Assembly (NCBI RefSeq): GCF_018474015.1
Contig: NZ_JAHCSG010000002.1
Location: 558,001 to 622,000 of the forward strand
Source: Williamsia sp. CHRR-6
GTDB taxonomy: Bacteria > Actinomycetota > Actinomycetes > Mycobacteriales > Mycobacteriaceae
Direction: 5' to 3'
Length of the DNA: 64,000 nucleotides
The notes under the pieces are model-generated. The model was not told the DNA's origin. It was given only the letters and a program-made list of their open reading frames with translations, and ran no database searches. The first letter of the stretch is position 1; every line of letters begins with the position of its first letter. Below, piece by piece: positions 26,477-34,591 of this stretch. The position numbers and the translations under genes were made by a program.

Positions 26477-27622
26477 TCACTGGCCCTGCAACACGTGGGT
26501 GACGCACACCGCGCCCAGGCCCACCATGTGAGCCAAACCGGTTCGTGCCCCGGCGTGTTGACGGGCACCGGCCTCTCCACGGATCTGGGTGGTGATCTCG
26601 CCGATCTGGCCGACCCCGGTGGGTCCGATCGGGTGACCGGAACCCAACAGCCCACCCGAGGTGTTCACCGCCACCGTGCCACCGCGCGCGAAGTGACCAC
26701 GCTCGAGTGCAGCGGCCGCCTCACCCTCGCCGACCAGCCCCATGGCCTCGACGTACTGCAGTTCCTCGATGGTGAACGCGTCGTGTAACTCCACCAGGTC
26801 GAGGTCGGCGGGTGTGATGCCCGCCTGCTCGTAGGCAATCTCGGTGGTGGTGCGGGTCAACTCGGCGTCAAAGCTCTTCGCGCCGTACAGCTCCTCGCTG
26901 CGCTGCACCGAGGCCAGCACGCGAACGCAGCGGGATCGATCGATCCCCAACGCGTCGATACCGTCGTCGGACACCACCAGCACCGCAGCCGCGCCCTCGC
27001 CGACAGGGCAGCACTGCAGCCGGGTGAACACCCCGGAGATCACCGGTCCGCCCAGGACATCGGCCAAGCCGTAAGCCTTGGGCCGCTGAGCGTTCGGGTT
27101 CAGTGCCGCGTTGGAATAGTTCTTCACCGCCACCCCCGCGACCTGTTCGGCGGTGGCGCCGTAGGTGTTCATGTACTCGTCGGCGAGCAGGGCGAAGTGA
27201 GTGACCGGCGCGACGTAGGACCCGGAGAGGTCGGGCACCCCCGACCGAGTACCCGCGGGTGGGATGGGTGCCGGCTTGTCCACGCCCAACGCCAGGGAGA
27301 CGTCGCTGTAGCCTGATGCGACATCCAGGCAGGCCAGACGGAAGGCCGACGAGCCTGAGGCGGAGGCGTTTTCCACCTGGGTCATCGGAATCCCGGTGAC
27401 GCCGAGGTGTTTGAGCATCGGGCGCGATGCCGCCATCCCGAGCATCGAGGTGCCGGTGTAGGCGCTCTCTACGGCGGGCCAGGTGAGACCGGCGTCGGTC
27501 AACGCTTGGCGCACCGCAGTCAGCCCCAGTTGGACATAGGGTGTGGCGCTGGGCTTCTGGTATGGGTGCCAGCCCACACCGGCGACATACACCGGACGTT
27601 GTCGAGCCAGGGTGACAGTCAT
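26477..27622 (-). CDS. Thiolase-superfamily (SCPx/Ltp-type) protein lacking the usual nucleophilic Cys; probable retro-aldolase
   Basis: 381 residues. The SCP2-thiolase fold is clear: VYVAGVGWHPY at the start, ELHDAFTIEELQYVEAMGL (family His), and NTSGGLLGSGHPIGPTGVGQ with the catalytic His of GHP. Where thiolases and many lipid-transfer relatives have N-A-C-A-S-G, this protein has NASASG: Ser87 replaces the acyl-accepting Cys. It is coupled through ATGA to a DUF35 protein, the same pairing seen in steroid side-chain aldolases (Ltp2-ChsH2). Retro-aldol cleavage of a beta-hydroxyacyl-CoA is therefore a better guess than thiolysis. It is the last gene of the echA-SDR-DUF35-thiolase unit. Confidence 0.85.
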   Translation of the reverse strand: MTVTLARQRPVYVAGVGWHPYQKPSATPYVQLGLTAVRQALTDAGLTWPAVESAYTGTSMLGMAASRPMLKHLGVTGIPMTQVENASASGSSAFRLACLDVASGYSDVSLALGVDKPAPIPPAGTRSGVPDLSGSYVAPVTHFALLADEYMNTYGATAEQVAGVAVKNYSNAALNPNAQRPKAYGLADVLGGPVISGVFTRLQCCPVGEGAAAVLVVSDDGIDALGIDRSRCVRVLASVQRSEELYGAKSFDAELTRTTTEIAYEQAGITPADLDLVELHDAFTIEELQYVEAMGLVGEGEAAAALERGHFARGGTVAVNTSGGLLGSGHPIGPTGVGQIGEITTQIRGEAGARQHAGARTGLAHMVGLGAVCVTHVLQGQ

Positions 27623-28026
27623 GGTTGCTCCTTGGATGCGAGTGCGAAGCGCAGCTCTGCGGCGCGAACTTCGCCGCGGTCCACCACCACGGTGATCGCC
27701 TGGACGCGATCGCCGACCGAGGCGGTGACCCCGTCAGCGAGCACACCACGGATGAGTGGGCCTTCGTCGAGTTCGATGGCCGCCACGGTGAACGGGGTCG
27801 GGATGTCGGCCGACGGGTGATGATGGACCTCGGCGCGGGCGGTGACCGTTCCGGTACCGGCCAGATCGATGGCGGTCAGTTGATCGCCGTAGGCGCCAGT
27901 TGCCTCGGACCCGTACTGCTGAAAAGGGAAGAACACGTTGCCGTCTGGGTCGGTGAGACCCTTGAGAACGGGCGTCCCGGAATCGTCGACCGAGTACAGC
28001 TCTGGTTGCGCGGATGTGAGAGTCAT
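27619..28026 (-). CDS. DUF35/OB-fold acyl-CoA-associated protein, no zinc-ribbon cysteines
   Basis: 135 residues. The C-terminal OB-fold of DUF35 is recognisable (GTGTVTARAEVHHH...PFTVAAIELDEGPLIRGVL). The N-terminal part should be a rubredoxin-like zinc ribbon with two Cys pairs, and its shape is kept (GNVFFPFQQYGSEATG). However, the whole protein contains no cysteine, so no metal can be bound in the usual way. DUF35 proteins are obligate partners of thiolase-like enzymes and present or bind the CoA substrate. The stop overlaps the thiolase start by 4 bp and the start follows the SDR gene by 20 bp. It should form a heteromeric complex with the thiolase. Confidence 0.82.
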   Translation of the reverse strand: MTLTSAQPELYSVDDSGTPVLKGLTDPDGNVFFPFQQYGSEATGAYGDQLTAIDLAGTGTVTARAEVHHHPSADIPTPFTVAAIELDEGPLIRGVLADGVTASVGDRVQAITVVVDRGEVRAAELRFALASKEQP

Positions 28027-28046: not shown

Positions 28047-28841
28047 TCAGAGCGTGAAGGAGTAGCCGCCGTTGACCGGGATGGTCTGACCGGTGATCCA
28101 GCTCGACGCTCCCGACGCCAGGAAAAGCACCATGTTGGCGGCGTCTTCGGGCTCACCGAACCGACGCACCACGTAGCTGGAGAGCACCTTCTTGGCGAAA
28201 TCCTCGTTGCCCATGGCTGCTTCGGTGGCCGGGGTGCGGGTCGCTCCGAGGGCAACCGCGTTGGCGGTGATGCCGAATCGTCCGCCGAGACGCGCCATCG
28301 ATCGGGTGAACCCGGCGGCCCCGGCCTTGGCCGCAGAGTACGACTCCATGCCGTTGATCTCCCCGACCCGGCCGGCGTCGGAGACGACGGTGATCAGTCG
28401 GCCGTACTTCTTGGAGATCATGTGCGGGAACACATGTCGGCTGGCGTTGAGCACGCCGTGCAGGTTGACGTTGAGGTAGGGGTTCCAGTCGGAGGGGTCC
28501 TGTTCCCAGAACGGCTTGGGTGCACTGTTGGGCGCCTCGGCACCACGGTTGCCTGCGTTGTTCACCAGGATGTCGATGGGACCCAGCTCGTCTGCGGCGG
28601 CGGCGATCGCGGCACCGAATCCCTCGAAGTCACCCACGTCACCCACGGCGGTGGTGGCGTTCGCGCCGGCGGCCCGCAGCTCTTCGACGACGTTCTTGGC
28701 GCGTTCGGCGTCGAAGTCGTTGACCACCACCGACGCGCCGTTGGCGGCGAACTGTAGGGCGATGGCGCGTCCGACGCCCTGGCCGGCGCCGGTGATCAGC
28801 GCGGTGTGGCCGGTGAGGTCGAGGATGTTCTCGGTGGACAT
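28047..28841 (-). CDS. Short-chain dehydrogenase/reductase, probable 3-hydroxyacyl-CoA dehydrogenase
   Basis: 264 residues with a complete classical SDR set: the nucleotide-binding TGAGQGVGRAIAL near residue 18, DFDAERA after beta-2 (Asp at the NAD-preferring position), NNAGNRG, and the catalytic YSAAKAG (Tyr and Lys). The C-terminal ITGQTIPVNGGYS is typical of FabG-like and 17-beta-HSD4-like enzymes. Within this locus it could oxidise the 3-hydroxyacyl-CoA made by the enoyl-CoA hydratase, or act on a ring alcohol. It lies between the echA-like gene (78-bp gap) and the DUF35 gene (20-bp gap) on the same strand. Confidence 0.9.
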   Translation of the reverse strand: MSTENILDLTGHTALITGAGQGVGRAIALQFAANGASVVVNDFDAERAKNVVEELRAAGANATTAVGDVGDFEGFGAAIAAAADELGPIDILVNNAGNRGAEAPNSAPKPFWEQDPSDWNPYLNVNLHGVLNASRHVFPHMISKKYGRLITVVSDAGRVGEINGMESYSAAKAGAAGFTRSMARLGGRFGITANAVALGATRTPATEAAMGNEDFAKKVLSSYVVRRFGEPEDAANMVLFLASGASSWITGQTIPVNGGYSFTL

Positions 28842-28919: not shown

Positions 28920-29708
28920 TCAGCGTCCCTTCCACTGGGGCGCCCGCTTCTGGGCGAACGCGGCGAGGCCTTCCTTGAGATCCTCGGAATCCATGACGGG
29001 TTTGGCGTAGACCATCTGCTCGGCCCAGCCCTGTTCGTCGGTCCACTCGTGGGCGTGGGCGAGGATCTGCTTGCTGGCGATGACCGACAGCGGTCCGGCG
29101 GCGGCGATGTCGCCGGCCAGCTCGAGTGCGGCGTCCACCGCCCCACCGACCGGCGTGATCCGGCTGACCAGCCCCAGTCGGTGGAACTCGCTGGCGGGCT
29201 GCGGCTTTCCGGTCAGGGCAAGCTCGACGGCCACGTTGTGGGGGATGCGCTTGGGAAGCCGGAACAGGCCGCCGCCGACCGCGATCAGACCGCGCGCCGC
29301 TTCGGGCAGTCCCATCCGCGTGGCCTCGGTGGCCACGATCAGATCGCAGGCCAGGCACAGCTCGAAACCGCCGGCCAAGGCGTCGCCCTCGACGGCGGCG
29401 ATGATCGGCTTGGTGGGCGGCTGGGCCATGATCCCGAAGCCACCGCGCCTCTCGGTGGACCCATAGTCGCCGACTGCGGCGGCCTTGAGGTCCTGGCCTG
29501 CGGAGAAGGTGGGTCCGGCCCCGGTGATCACCGCGACGCGCAGGGTGGAATCGTCTTCGTAGGCGTCGAGAGCCGCCTCGAGCGCGTGTGCGGTCGCGCC
29601 GTCGAAGGAGTTGCGCCGCTGTTCACGGTTGATGGTGATCAGCAGGATGCTCTCGTCTGCGCCGCGGCGCTCGGTGAGGATCAGATCAGAAGATGGCGTC
29701 GTCGACAT
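28920..29708 (-). CDS. Enoyl-CoA hydratase/isomerase (crotonase family)
   Basis: 262 residues. Crotonase features are clear: the oxyanion-hole segments FSAGQDLKA and AVEGDALAGGFELCLACDL, and the active-site region RMGLPEAARGLIAVGGGLFRLPK. The Glu of GLPEA is in the place of one catalytic Glu. A second is not obvious in the GGG-x-x-x-LP region, so hydratase versus another crotonase activity is left open. It is the first gene of the echA-SDR-DUF35-thiolase unit. A palindromic motif also found before the fadE gene lies 111 bp upstream, suggesting TetR control. Confidence 0.9.
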   Translation of the reverse strand: MSTTPSSDLILTERRGADESILLITINREQRRNSFDGATAHALEAALDAYEDDSTLRVAVITGAGPTFSAGQDLKAAAVGDYGSTERRGGFGIMAQPPTKPIIAAVEGDALAGGFELCLACDLIVATEATRMGLPEAARGLIAVGGGLFRLPKRIPHNVAVELALTGKPQPASEFHRLGLVSRITPVGGAVDAALELAGDIAAAGPLSVIASKQILAHAHEWTDEQGWAEQMVYAKPVMDSEDLKEGLAAFAQKRAPQWKGR

Positions 29709-29887: not shown

Positions 29888-30574
29888 TCAGGAACCGAGA
29901 TGACCCGAGAGATAGCCGCGCACAAGTTGTTTGGTCACGTCGGCGATGTGCCGCAGATCGAGGCCGTCGTCGGTGAGGTGTTGCAGCGCCACCCCGCGCA
30001 GCGTTCCCTCCACGATCACGGCGAGATCGGCAGCCCGGTCGGTCGGCTCGATCTCGCCGTCGGCCACCGCCTGGTCGATCCAGCTGATGACCATCTCGCG
30101 GATGAGGGTGTTGTTCTGCGCCACGGCCGAGCGCAGACCGGGGGAGGATGTGAACGCCTCCACCTGGAGCACGAACATGGCCCGGGCGTAGTTGGGCCCG
30201 TCCAGGCCGGCCAGCCGATCGGGCAGGAAATACTGCTCGATCAGGTCGTCGATCGCGGCGAGTCCGCGTGCGTGCGGTCCGCCTGACGCCATCTGCGCTG
30301 TGACCCGTTCTCGGATGGCGGCGATCACCTCCACCATGCACTGCTCTTTGGAGCCGAAGTGGAAGGTGACGAGGCCGCGGCTGAGCCCGGCCCGCTGCCC
30401 GATCTCCACCAGCGTGGTGCGGTTGTACCCGTTGGTTCCCACGAGATCGATTGCTGCGGAGATGATCTTCTCCCGGGACTCCGCCGAGCGGTCGGCCTGG
30501 GACCGACGATCACCGCCGCTACGCCCCCGCCGCGTCGGGGCAGGGGTGGCGCGCGCGGTGCGGTCAGGCATCAT
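29888..30574 (-). CDS. TetR-family transcriptional regulator of the acyl-CoA catabolic locus
   Basis: 228 residues from the ATG at 30574; ATGs at 30571 and 30595 are in-frame options. The DNA-binding domain follows an Arg-rich leader: ESREKIISAAIDLVGTNGY, then the helix-turn-helix (TTLVEIGQRAGLSRGLVTFHF) and FGSKEQCM. The C-terminal ligand domain (QYFLPDRLAGLDGPNYARAMF) is of the acyl-CoA-responsive type by general look, not by specific motif. It sits between caiB and the echA-like gene, all on the same strand. The inverted repeat TGCGA-N7-TCGCA (30574-30590) overlaps its start. It is likely the repressor acting at the two shared motifs. Confidence 0.87.
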   Translation of the reverse strand: MMPDRTARATPAPTRRGRSGGDRRSQADRSAESREKIISAAIDLVGTNGYNRTTLVEIGQRAGLSRGLVTFHFGSKEQCMVEVIAAIRERVTAQMASGGPHARGLAAIDDLIEQYFLPDRLAGLDGPNYARAMFVLQVEAFTSSPGLRSAVAQNNTLIREMVISWIDQAVADGEIEPTDRAADLAVIVEGTLRGVALQHLTDDGLDLRHIADVTKQLVRGYLSGHLGS

Positions 30575-30632
30575 GCGAGTGTAGTTCGCACGCATACCCG
30601 TCCGCTCTTCACTGATCGGGTGGGCGCTCATC

Positions 30633-31772
30633 TCAACCCACCGTGGCCGTCGAACGCAGGGGTGCTCGGTCGGTGGCCGACCACTGCGCCACCACATCAG
30701 CAGGCGTCGATGCCGACGGGGCGTCGGCACTGGGAACCGAGGGCTGCGATCGCGAGAACCGTGGTGCCGGAGCGGCTTGTGCCACACCGTCGACGGTGAT
30801 CACCGCATCACGCTGCGACTGCTGAGGGTGGCGCGCCGACTCCTCCAGGGTGAGAACAGGTGCGACGCAGGCATCTACGCCGGCGAAGGCCTGCTCCCAC
30901 TCGTTCATGGTGCGGGTGGCCACGATGCCGGCGAACCGCTCGGTCAGTTCGGCCCAGTGGGTGTGATCGTTCTGCTCGGGCAGCTCGGCAGGGTCGAGAC
31001 CGAGCCCGATCACGAACTCGCGGTAGAACTTCGGCTCGATGGCCCCCACCGACAGATAGCGGCCGTCGGAGCACCGGTAGGTGCGGTAGTACGGTGTGCG
31101 GCCCTGGCTGATGGCGTCGAGCAGCGGGCCCACCGCCGGCGACGCCTTGGCCGTCCACTGCATCTGCAGCAGGATGCCGCTGCCGTCGAGCATCGCGGCG
31201 TCGACCACCTGCCCGCGGCCGGAGATCACTCGTTCCAGCAGCGCCGACAGCACGCCCACGACCAAGAACAGTGAGCCGCCGCCGAAGTCGCCCACCAGAT
31301 TTGCCGGTGGCCGCGGTTGTTCACCGGGCGGGGTGATGGCGTCGAGTGCGCCGGCTAGGGCGATGTAGTTGATGTCGTGCCCGGCGCGATCGGCCATCGG
31401 ACCCGACTGACCCCACCCGGTCATCCGGGCGTAGACCAAGCCGGGGTTGTCTGCGGACACCTCGTCGGGACCTAGGCCCAACCGTTCCATCACCCCGGGA
31501 CGGAATCCCTCGATGAGGACGTCGGCCACGCGTATCAGCTCGCGCACGGCGGCCACACCGTCGGCCGACTGCAGGTCGAGCTCCACCCATCGGCGTCCCC
31601 GCTGCATGGGGTCCGGGGACGGGCGGTACCCGACTCGGGTCACACGGACCACGTCGGCGCCGAGGTCGGACAGGATCATCGCCGCATGCGGACCAGGACC
31701 GATGCTGCCGATCTCGATGACACGCAGGCCGGACAGCGGTCCGCCGGTACCGGGTGTTGTCTCAGTTGCCAT
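30633..31772 (-). CDS. Family III CoA-transferase (CaiB/BaiF) or acyl-CoA racemase
   Basis: 379 residues. CaiB/BaiF signatures: GLRVIEIGSIGPGPHAAMILSDLGADVVRV at the N-terminus, the conserved NLVGDFGGGSLFLV with the catalytic Asp that forms an acyl anhydride, and GRGQVVDAAMLDG. Alpha-methylacyl-CoA racemases share this fold, and AMACR-like function (epimerising a methyl-branched acyl-CoA before the FadE step) is as likely as CoA transfer. The LG-rich pattern around residues 90-115 matches both. Since a dedicated FadD ligase is encoded 7 bp upstream, the racemase role makes good pathway sense; this is inference. Confidence 0.88.
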   Translation of the reverse strand: MATETTPGTGGPLSGLRVIEIGSIGPGPHAAMILSDLGADVVRVTRVGYRPSPDPMQRGRRWVELDLQSADGVAAVRELIRVADVLIEGFRPGVMERLGLGPDEVSADNPGLVYARMTGWGQSGPMADRAGHDINYIALAGALDAITPPGEQPRPPANLVGDFGGGSLFLVVGVLSALLERVISGRGQVVDAAMLDGSGILLQMQWTAKASPAVGPLLDAISQGRTPYYRTYRCSDGRYLSVGAIEPKFYREFVIGLGLDPAELPEQNDHTHWAELTERFAGIVATRTMNEWEQAFAGVDACVAPVLTLEESARHPQQSQRDAVITVDGVAQAAPAPRFSRSQPSVPSADAPSASTPADVVAQWSATDRAPLRSTATVG

Positions 31773-31779
31773 GATGCGC

Positions 31780-33342
31780 TTATCCTTTCGCCTCGGCTGG
31801 TTCCCGATGCCTGCTGCGCAGAGCGCGTTTGTCCAGCTTCCCGGTGGCGGTCACCGGCATCTGATCGACGAACTCGACCAGCTTGGGTGTGTTGATCGGG
31901 CCCTTCTGGCGGCGCACCAGCTCCTGGATCTCGGCTGCAGTGACCAGTTGTCCTGGCTTGAGTGTGATCACGGCTTTGACTGCCTCGCCCCACTTCTCGT
32001 CCGGGACCCCGATGACCGCAGCGTTGGCGACACCGGTGTGCGCCTCGATGGCGATCTCCACTTCGCGCGGGTAGACGTTGAACCCGCCGGAGATGATCAT
32101 GTCCTTGAGGCGGTCGACGATCGTGACCGTCCCGTCGGGCGACTGCACCCCGACGTCGCCGGTGTGCAACCACCCATCGCGCAGGGTCAGCGCGGTCAGT
32201 TCGGGATTCTTCCAGTACCCCGACATCACCGATGGACCCCGGAGGCAGATCTCGCCCACTTCGCCTGCGGGAAGGGTTGATCCAGTCTCATCCTGGATGG
32301 CCAGATCGATCAGGAAGTGAGGACGACCCGCCGAGGCCAGCAGTTCAGGACGGTCGGGATCGTGATCTTCCTTGCGAAGACGTGTCCCAAGACCCAACGA
32401 CTCGGTCTGGCCGTACCCCTGGGAGAAGATGGGGCCCACCTGCTGCATACACGCCCGCAGCGACGCCGGAGACATCAACGCTGCACCGTAGATGAAGTTG
32501 TCCAGGCTGGAGATGTCGGTGGTGTCGATCTCGGGCAGGCGCAGCAGCGAATAGAGCATCGTCGGCACACCGAAGGTGTAGCTGATGCGGTGCTCCTCGA
32601 TGGCGCGCAGGAAGCGGTGGGCGTCGAATCCCTCGTGCAGCACCGACATCCCGCCCCGAGCCAGGGTCGGCGCAATCGCGTTGCCGGCGGCGTGTGAGAT
32701 GGGAGCCGCCACCAGCCCGTGCGCTGCGGGAGCGATCTCGCCGTCCATCAGCGACGCCTGCAGCACCGCGGTCCACGCCCGCTGGGGCAGCATCACGCCT
32801 TTGGGACGCCCGGTCGTGCCGCCGGTGTACAGCACCGTCTGGATCGCCTCAGGGTCTGTCACGGCGGGGATCAGCCGCGACATCGGTGCCACTCGAGCGA
32901 GCGCCAGAATGTCCTCGAACTGGTCGCTGGGCCCCAGGCTGAAGACCTTGGTGATGCTGGGAACCTGTTCGGACAAGACCGTTGCGCGCTCGGCGAAAGC
33001 GTCGGAATCGACTATGAGAGTTGCGATCTCAGCGTCATCGCAGATGTAGAGGTGATCGGACTCCGACGCGGCGAACAGCAGGGGAGTGGTACGAGCCCCG
33101 AGGAACTGTGCCGCGAGCCCGGACAACCATGCGGCGGCTCGGTTCCGGGACAGGATGGCCACCGCGTCGCCCGGGCCCACGCCGTGTGCGGCGAGGGTGT
33201 GGGCGATACCGGAGACCAGCTGACCTGCCTGGGCGAACGTGAGCTCGCCGTCGAGGTCGACAAAGGCGGTTCGGTCCGGGTAGGCGGCGATTGCTGCCGC
33301 CACCGTCTCCATCTGATTGGGGGACCGGTGTAGGGCGTTCAT
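31780..33342 (-). CDS. Acyl-CoA synthetase (AMP-forming, FadD-type)
   Basis: 520 residues from the ATG at 33342, preceded by GGGAGG; a longer frame to 33420 is unsupported. The ANL-superfamily motifs are all present: P-loop YTGGTTGRPKGVML, GYGQTES, the hinge region GWLHTGDVGVQSPDGTVTIVDRLKDMI, and the C-terminal catalytic lysine in PVTATGKLDKRAL. It activates a free carboxylic acid to its CoA thioester, the entry step of this locus. It is the second gene of the fadE-fadD-caiB-tetR unit, starting 67 bp after the fadE stop. Chain length and substrate cannot be read from the sequence. Confidence 0.93.
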   Translation of the reverse strand: MNALHRSPNQMETVAAAIAAYPDRTAFVDLDGELTFAQAGQLVSGIAHTLAAHGVGPGDAVAILSRNRAAAWLSGLAAQFLGARTTPLLFAASESDHLYICDDAEIATLIVDSDAFAERATVLSEQVPSITKVFSLGPSDQFEDILALARVAPMSRLIPAVTDPEAIQTVLYTGGTTGRPKGVMLPQRAWTAVLQASLMDGEIAPAAHGLVAAPISHAAGNAIAPTLARGGMSVLHEGFDAHRFLRAIEEHRISYTFGVPTMLYSLLRLPEIDTTDISSLDNFIYGAALMSPASLRACMQQVGPIFSQGYGQTESLGLGTRLRKEDHDPDRPELLASAGRPHFLIDLAIQDETGSTLPAGEVGEICLRGPSVMSGYWKNPELTALTLRDGWLHTGDVGVQSPDGTVTIVDRLKDMIISGGFNVYPREVEIAIEAHTGVANAAVIGVPDEKWGEAVKAVITLKPGQLVTAAEIQELVRRQKGPINTPKLVEFVDQMPVTATGKLDKRALRSRHREPAEAKG

Positions 33343-33409
33343 CGTTGAACCTCCCGAACGTGTAGGGGTGCCATGGGATGTCAGATTCTGTGGGTGATGT
33401 GGGTGTGGC

Positions 33410-34591
33410 TCACAGGCCAACCCAGCGAGCGATGTTGGCGCGCAGCAACTCGCTGGTGCCCTCGTACAGGCGGCCGGCGCGAGCGTCGCGGTAGAAGCGC
33501 TCGACGCCGACGGCGGTGGTGACGCCCATGCCGCCGTGTACCTGGATGGCGCGATCGGCCACCCGGGAGAGCAGTTCGGTGCCGGTGATCTTGGCGCTGG
33601 CGGCCAGGATGCGCTCCTTGCCGTCGAGGGCGTCCACCGAGCGGGCCGCAGCCAGGGTCAGTTGCCAGGCGGCTTCGGTCTCGATGATCGAATCGACGAT
33701 GTGGCCCTGCACGAACTGGTTCTTGCCGATCGGGGTGCCGAATGCGTGCCGCTCCTTGGCGTAGGACAGCATGCGGTCGATGAGGTACTCGGACTTGCCG
33801 ATCGAGCCGGCTCCGACGTTGAGGCGGGTGAAGTTGATGCCCTTGAGGGCAGGGCCGAAGGCGAAGCCCTCCTTGCCCAGGATCGCCGAATTCGGTACGC
33901 GCACATCGTCGAAGAACAGATCCGCAGGACGATGCTCGCCGAGGGTCTGGTGCACGCCACCCACGCTGACGCCGGGGGTGTCCATGTCGACCAGGAACAG
34001 GGTGATGCCACCGTGTGAGCCCTTGGTCGCGTCGGTGACAGCGACCACCATGCAGAAGTCGGCGTACTGCCCGTTGGTGATGAACTGCTTGGAGCCGTTG
34101 ATGATCCAGTCGTCACCGTCGCGCACCGCGCGGGTCTTGATGTTGGATGCGTCAGAACCGGCGCCCGGCTCGGTCAGACCGAAACATGCCTGCTTCTCGG
34201 CGCGCATGACGGGGTCGAGGTACTGCGCTCGCTGGGCCTCGTTCATGGAGAACATGGCCGGGCTGGGGCCTTCGACGCCGCAGAACACACCCGAGGCGAG
34301 GATGAGGCCAGACTTGCCGACGGCCTTGTGGCAGTGGACCATCGGCTCGGCACCGATTCCGCCGCCGCCGAACTCCTCGGGCGTGGCCATGGTGTAGAAC
34401 CCCGCATCGGCGCTCTTGCGGCGGATGGCGAGCAGCTCGCGCTGCTTGTCCTCGGCAGGGATGTCGCCGGTCGCGGAGATGACGTCGGAGTACTTCTCCT
34501 CGACGGGGCGAACTTCGTGCTCGATGAACAGGCGGACACCCTCGGCCAGTTCCTCGCCGGTGGTGATGTCAATGGTGCTGGTGGTGCTCAT
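33410..34591 (-). CDS. Acyl-CoA dehydrogenase (FadE-type)
   Basis: 393 residues. The FAD and substrate motifs are typical: CFGLTEPGAGSDAS, IINGSKQFITNGQYADF, and the C-terminal RLYEGTSELLR that carries the catalytic Glu at the classical (MCAD-like) place. A flexible N-terminal helix region (EEVRP-like HEVRPVEEKY) starts the fold. It introduces the alpha-beta double bond into the acyl-CoA made by FadD. It is the first gene of the minus-strand unit fadE-fadD-caiB-tetR. A CTTGT-N6-ACAAG motif lies 182 bp upstream of the start and resembles the one before the echA-like gene. Confidence 0.93.
   Translation of the reverse strand: MSTTSTIDITTGEELAEGVRLFIEHEVRPVEEKYSDVISATGDIPAEDKQRELLAIRRKSADAGFYTMATPEEFGGGGIGAEPMVHCHKAVGKSGLILASGVFCGVEGPSPAMFSMNEAQRAQYLDPVMRAEKQACFGLTEPGAGSDASNIKTRAVRDGDDWIINGSKQFITNGQYADFCMVVAVTDATKGSHGGITLFLVDMDTPGVSVGGVHQTLGEHRPADLFFDDVRVPNSAILGKEGFAFGPALKGINFTRLNVGAGSIGKSEYLIDRMLSYAKERHAFGTPIGKNQFVQGHIVDSIIETEAAWQLTLAAARSVDALDGKERILAASAKITGTELLSRVADRAIQVHGGMGVTTAVGVERFYRDARAGRLYEGTSELLRANIARWVGL

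Follow-up and report, generated by a model that had tools for sequence, protein, structure and literature searches.

BbsAB, the benzoylsuccinyl-CoA thiolase, ends the beta-oxidation of benzylsuccinate, and IpfD/IpfE (ibuprofen), Ltp3/Ltp4 and VceA/VceB are pairs that we take to be possible further leads for the locus described here. The thiolase subunit BbsB (7pxp) has a Cys at the nucleophile column, and the title of its paper calls the partner a Zn-finger subunit. BbsB carries HDAF, without the Cys of the HDCF motif, and is named a thiolase both in the PDB and in that title, so that a thiolase can do without the Cys of HDCF. The retro-aldolases Ltp2-ChsH2 (6ok1) and Sal-Shy also contain a DUF35-bound thiolase-like subunit, which has no nucleophilic Cys. 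According to PMC12329534, the aldolases compared there need the Tyr of a YDHF or YDCY motif, Gly occupies the Cys position of Sal, and changing Tyr302 to Phe abolished Sal activity. The same source describes zinc in the structures compared and, in the solved ChsH2 DUF35 protein, its binding by four Cys. Ser in place of Cys has a precedent in DpsC, the daunorubicin priming enzyme, which the available text of PMC12664062 describes as a thiolase-fold protein with Ser118-His-Asp and confirmed self-acylation. DpsC differs from the systems above in that it serves polyketide priming and that this text mentions no DUF35 protein; we liken it to our locus by description and not by sequence.

We analysed a stretch of 64,000 nucleotides from Williamsia sp. 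CHRR-6 (the window), in which a thiolase-like protein of 381 residues is encoded on the minus strand at 26477-27622. Its matches to PF22691 (117 bits), PF00108 (50.8 bits) and PF02803 (37.3 bits), each above the gathering score, place it in the thiolase superfamily by similarity in both the N- and the C-terminal domain. Residues 83-90 read VENASASG, with Ser87 (codon TCC, 27362-27364) in the column that holds the nucleophilic Cys of catalytic thiolases of the SCP2 or BbsB type; it aligns with the Cys of NNCSTG in SCP2-thiolase (6hsj), SACSAG in BbsB (7pxp) and AACASG in 7yvy and 6esq. Both histidines of catalytic thiolases are present, namely H280 in the HDAF motif (codons of H280-D281-A282, 26777-26785) and H330 in the GHP motif (codon at 26633-26635), and all these codons were checked. 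A282 occupies the position of the HDCF Cys of SCP2-thiolases, a Cys that BbsB lacks as well. E209 and E286 are specific to the Ser-type clade in the alignment, and at a guess one of them could form a triad with Ser87.

The start codon of the thiolase gene overlaps the stop codon of the DUF35 gene in an ATGA (27619-27622, minus strand). The DUF35 protein (27619-28026, minus strand) has 135 residues and no Cys; its OB-fold is recognised by PF01796 at 36.5 bits (gathering score 27.1). Aligned with zinc-keeping relatives, and with the codons checked, the four zinc-ligand columns hold D26, D28, S40 and T43, so that the N-terminal zinc ribbon, of which the stretch from D26 to T43 (27898-27951, minus strand) is the remnant, has none of its ligands. 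The same kind of zinc-free pair occurs in four other genomes (L001, from Nocardioides donggukensis, L183/L091, L184/L092 and L185/L093), which makes a sequencing error unlikely. By analogy with known DUF35 complexes, we infer that the two proteins form a complex. At L045 (2165-3976), matches to a DUF35 protein and to a Ser-type thiolase lie in a single open frame, apparently a natural fusion, and this fits a physical complex. The first-pass annotation had described a variant thiolase/DUF35 pair with Ser87 for Cys, both histidines kept and a Cys-free partner without a zinc ribbon, and the alignments bear out each of these points. Its wording that cysteine chemistry had been dropped holds for the nucleophile and HDxF columns, neither of which has a Cys, but goes too far for the thiolase as a whole, which retains five (Cys98, 204, 205, 232 and 373).

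The best PDB match of the window thiolase is SCP2-thiolase type 1 (6hsj, 200 bits), with which it shares the GHP and HDxF histidines but neither the nucleophilic nor the HDCF Cys. Among the Cys-type rows examined, most of which carry the SCP2-like HDCF, 12 of 24 have no DUF35 gene nearby. BbsAB is likewise a DUF35 and thiolase pair and has HDAFTI.EL and GHPIG in common with the window; as BbsB also has HDAF, the change from Cys to Ser alone among the compared motifs separates the family from BbsB. The window protein is nevertheless not a BbsB by the NCBIfam model NF053628 (207 bits against a cut-off of 750), and its DUF35 partner is free of zinc ligands, whereas that of BbsB is titled a Zn-finger subunit. 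A profile of the family scored 290 bits with SCP2-thiolase, 280 bits with BbsB and 105 bits with Ltp2. Where Ltp2 and Sal have Gly and the Tyr of YDHF or YDCY (PMC12329534 and our alignment), the window has Ser87 and HDAF, and where Ltp2 has AYIHG, the window has GHP. Public records list these proteins as 'thiolase family protein'; the curated models closest to them bear the names 'lipid-transfer protein' or 'thiolase domain-containing protein'. A literature search in one open-access library found no Ser-type DUF35 thiolase.

Ser87 is a trait of a whole family. Our genome scan confirmed 128 relatives, of which the best 80 were kept; none of the six search patterns spans residue 87 and one spans HDAF. 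All 80 have Ser87, 79 of them by alignment and L062 by motif, its row being short there while its open reading frame reads IENASASG. In the alignment of the window with these 80, the HDAF and GHP histidines are found in 79/79 rows with a residue at those positions. Named carriers, several of them metagenome bins, fall in about eight phyla, judged by the titles of their records, and throughout these S87, H280 and H330 are invariant, as are many further positions. Identity drops among the plasmid matches listed (40 of 550), from 51-55% (H1-H7) to 39% or less, and a comparison with 60 genomes from the phylum puts the next relative at 43%; the family is thus well separated. Its occurrence is patchy, with carriers in 1/8 genomes of the genus and 8/301 genomes of the taxonomic family.

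When the set was widened to 168 rows, 91 had Ser at column 87 together with HDAF, 45 had Cys and 29 had Gly; the three remaining rows include L101, described below. From 109 rows, and with column 87 and those of HDAF excluded, we built a quick maximum-likelihood tree, in which several branches are long. It uses 45 of the 91 Ser/HDAF rows and omits 13 outgroup loci that were cut or near-duplicates. The 45 Ser/HDAF rows form one branch (SH-aLRT 100) among the Cys rows, and the Gly rows, together with one gapped row, are on a branch of their own (SH-aLRT 96). With NASASG, HDAF, an adjacent DUF35 gene and its place on the Ser branch, the window belongs to the Ser-type clade. Among the nearest Cys-type rows are thiolase-like proteins (L162/L207, L090, L165 and L146) that share HDAF and GHP with the family and differ in keeping Cys at the nucleophile column. 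On this placement, descent of the Ser family from Cys thiolases is favoured but not proven, given the AU test reported below. One contig of Bacillus dakarensis carries both types, each with a DUF35 gene, about 20 kb apart (Ser-type L023 and Cys/HDAF-type L207), and the SDR and enoyl-CoA hydratase (ECH) genes near the one match in type those near the other. The family is not alone in having Ser at the nucleophile column: L101, a distant thiolase-like protein from a genome of the same genus (G007), has VESASAGG together with HDMC, possibly through an independent change from Cys to Ser on a long branch.

We then compared the DUF35 partners of 89 distinct Ser-type loci besides the window. The complete zinc motif is present in 81 and absent from six (L001, L183, L184, L185, L086 and L077), while L030 has no DUF35 gene in reach and L048 is cut by a contig edge; with the window counted, 81/88 readable partners keep the full four-ligand ribbon. 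These counts, like those of gene neighbourhoods below, omit L186, L187, L189 and L191 as copies of L022, L008, L021 and L025. The first knuckle is CxxC in 67 of the complete motifs and a shortened CxC in 14, including L015, L016, L020 and L023. The window, L001, L091, L092 and L093 form one actinobacterial branch (SH-aLRT 99). L077 and L086, the latter on a Roseomonas plasmid, branch off in other parts of the tree, which points to three losses. Motif-less DUF35 proteins also occur outside the family. One, a weak match annotated as an OB-fold protein, stands beside the Cys/HDAF thiolase of L090, and in the genus of the window five of the six YDHF loci with a DUF35 found (L193, L194, L195, L205 and L206) have no Cys in the former zinc-ribbon stretch, while the partner in L196 keeps its cysteines. 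The thiolase-like protein of L193 matches Ltp2 (6ok1_A) at 591 bits.

As Ser87 is family-wide while 81/88 partners keep zinc, and as motif-less DUF35 proteins also accompany a Cys thiolase and Ltp2-type proteins, the two losses are not linked. The zinc loss is independent of the change from Cys to Ser, a separate and later change in a few lineages, and the proposal of the first-pass annotation that both partners dropped cysteine chemistry together does not stand. By itself, the loss of the zinc ligands in the actinobacterial clade is uninformative on chemistry, and its repetition suggests that zinc is non-essential to the DUF35 partners. In the zinc-free clade, four residues of the thiolase are rare elsewhere in the family. 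One of these is Ser328, two residues before His330 (residues 328-330, window 26633-26641), which all five zinc-free members have and for which 83/86 other family members have Met; a possible explanation is an adjustment to the altered DUF35 partner.

Upstream of the pair and on the same minus strand lie six genes that make up a putative operon with it. An SDR dehydrogenase (28047-28841; PF13561, 185 bits) comes first, separated from the DUF35 gene by 20 bp, and is followed by an enoyl-CoA hydratase/crotonase (28920-29708; PF00378, 165.5 bits; NF006100, 316.5 bits, cut-off 282), a TetR-type regulator (29888-30649, start codon uncertain; PF00440, 46.5 bits), a family III CoA-transferase (30633-31772; PF02515, 263 bits), an AMP-forming acyl-CoA ligase (31780-33345, start uncertain; PF00501, 242 bits) and an acyl-CoA dehydrogenase (33410-34591; PF00441, 129 bits). 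No second thiolase was seen among the annotated genes of this operon. The genome contains one match to the thiolase query at an E value of 1e-10 or better, hence no second close member, and at 1e-3 or better two further matches that are weak, partial and far away. In the other four zinc-free loci the SDRs are 59-73% and the ECHs 58-70% identical to those of the window, whereas the best ligases reach just 32-34%. This indicates that the hydratase and the dehydrogenase are the conserved partners and that the activating enzyme varies, which may mean that a single type of cleavage is supplied from different substrates.

An SDR and an ECH gene occur together within 5 kb in 30/65 Ser-type, 3/22 Cys-type and 1/15 Gly-type loci, and by clusters at 70% identity in 16/25 Ser, 2/17 Cys (Fisher p 0.001) and 1/9 Gly (p 0.017), counts in which the Ser class may be favoured as the search seeds were largely the window and family members. 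These neighbour counts exclude the window, loci with less than 4.5 kb on a side and a second, NEAF-type thiolase in L184. Genes resembling those of the window (SDR at least 50% and ECH at least 42% identical) are found together in 30/89 Ser-type loci, many of which are short stretches, in 1/20 Cys-only loci and in 0/13 Gly-only loci, the single Cys case being L207, about 20 kb from the Ser-type gene of the same Bacillus genome. In 35/65 Ser-type loci with enough flank, the combination of SDR and ECH is absent within 5 kb; many of these belong to Acidimicrobiia, where most such loci have a convergent aldehyde dehydrogenase (ALDH) gene instead.

Serine is a poorer nucleophile than cysteine, and we know of no natural Ser-dependent degradative thiolase. 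We nonetheless favour, with a probability of roughly 0.5, the reading that the pair is a DUF35-dependent, Ser-dependent thiolase-like enzyme that would perform the last step encoded by a beta-oxidation-like operon, the cleavage of a 3-ketoacyl-CoA. Substrate, reaction type and catalytic role of Ser87 are what we infer from residues and gene context. The ligase or the CoA-transferase, the acyl-CoA dehydrogenase, the hydratase and the SDR would convert some acid to a 3-ketoacyl-CoA, which the pair would cleave by a retro-Claisen reaction. Ser87 would either form an acyl-serine, released by CoA or water, or position CoA or water for direct attack; H280 and H330 would perform the usual acid/base and oxyanion work of a thiolase, and the DUF35 protein would be a structural partner. 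A Ser-dependent retro-Claisen cleavage is favoured since a hydratase, an SDR and then a thiolase-like protein with both histidines follow the order of beta-oxidation, although, SDRs being versatile, the presence of one does not prove a keto substrate. Against the reading stand the 35/65 Ser-type loci that lack the SDR and ECH combination and L207, a Cys-type thiolase whose SDR and ECH neighbours are of the types found here. DpsC, as described in PMC12664062, indicates that a Ser in a thiolase fold can become acylated.

The same precedent, with the invariance of Ser87, could also speak for a DpsC-like acyl-transferase or hydrolase that transfers the acyl group of a CoA thioester or sets it free without cleaving a C-C bond. 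This we consider unlikely given the catabolic context, with genes for acyl-CoA dehydrogenase, ligase, ECH and SDR. A scan of eight window proteins and selected open reading frames of L183, L001 and L184 recognised neither carrier-protein nor polyketide genes. Better placed, though less likely than the Ser-thiolase, is a retro-aldolase that works like Ltp2 and Sal with other residues: the hydratase would supply a 3-hydroxyacyl-CoA, H280 would replace the Tyr, and an SDR or ALDH would handle the carbonyl of the aldehyde or ketone released along with an acyl-CoA. The missing nucleophilic Cys and the DUF35 gene beside 65/65 Ser-type loci are in keeping with such an enzyme, and an AU test with the Ser and Gly rows as one clade, run on a row set that omitted seven further long-branch loci and further Ser rows relative to the tree, does not reject that clade (p 0.152). 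An aldolase of the Ltp2 type proper, as the first-pass annotation had suggested, is not borne out by the residues, since the window has neither the Gly of these aldolases nor the Tyr that they need according to PMC12329534, Sal being inactive after its Tyr302 was changed to Phe; HDAF and GHP are fixed in the family, in contrast to the YDHF and AYIHG of Ltp2-type rows. This Tyr requirement, with the Gly of Sal and of Ltp2-type rows, is among our reasons to prefer the Ser-thiolase over an aldolase. ALDH genes lie within 5 kb of 13/65 Ser-type loci against 1/22 Cys-type and 0/15 Gly-type loci. As proof of an aldehyde product this neighbourhood is weakened, because most cases belong to a single Acidimicrobiia synteny (many of the loci L050-L079), with the ALDH gene tail-to-tail with the thiolase gene and some 14-60 bases beyond it; most of these ALDH copies are 78-98% identical to one another, and the other ALDHs are mostly dissimilar. 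Loss of both the nucleophilic and the HDCF Cys might, finally, mark a catalytically dead paralogue with a structural or regulatory role. We regard this as highly improbable, as S87, H280, H330 and many other positions would hardly stay fixed across about eight phyla, and just 4/65 Ser-type loci have, within 5 kb, a classical thiolase as a possible target of such regulation.

The pair is thus a member of a family of enzymes widespread in bacteria, which probably cut CoA-linked carbon chains. We tentatively extend the Ser-thiolase reading to a class of Ser-dependent degradative thiolases in about eight phyla, DUF35-paired and often accompanied by their own hydratase and dehydrogenase, which might perform retro-Claisen cleavage via an acyl-serine, possibly with hydrolytic rather than thiolytic release, and whose DUF35 partners would have shed the zinc ribbon repeatedly without a change in the chemistry of the partner. 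If Ser87 does the work of the Cys, nature offers in this family a test of whether C-C cleavage in the thiolase fold can be Ser-driven. If its members are instead aldolases with HDAF, the Tyr of YDxF would be an unsafe marker of thiolase-fold aldolases. With either answer, many beta-oxidation-like operons would become correctly readable.
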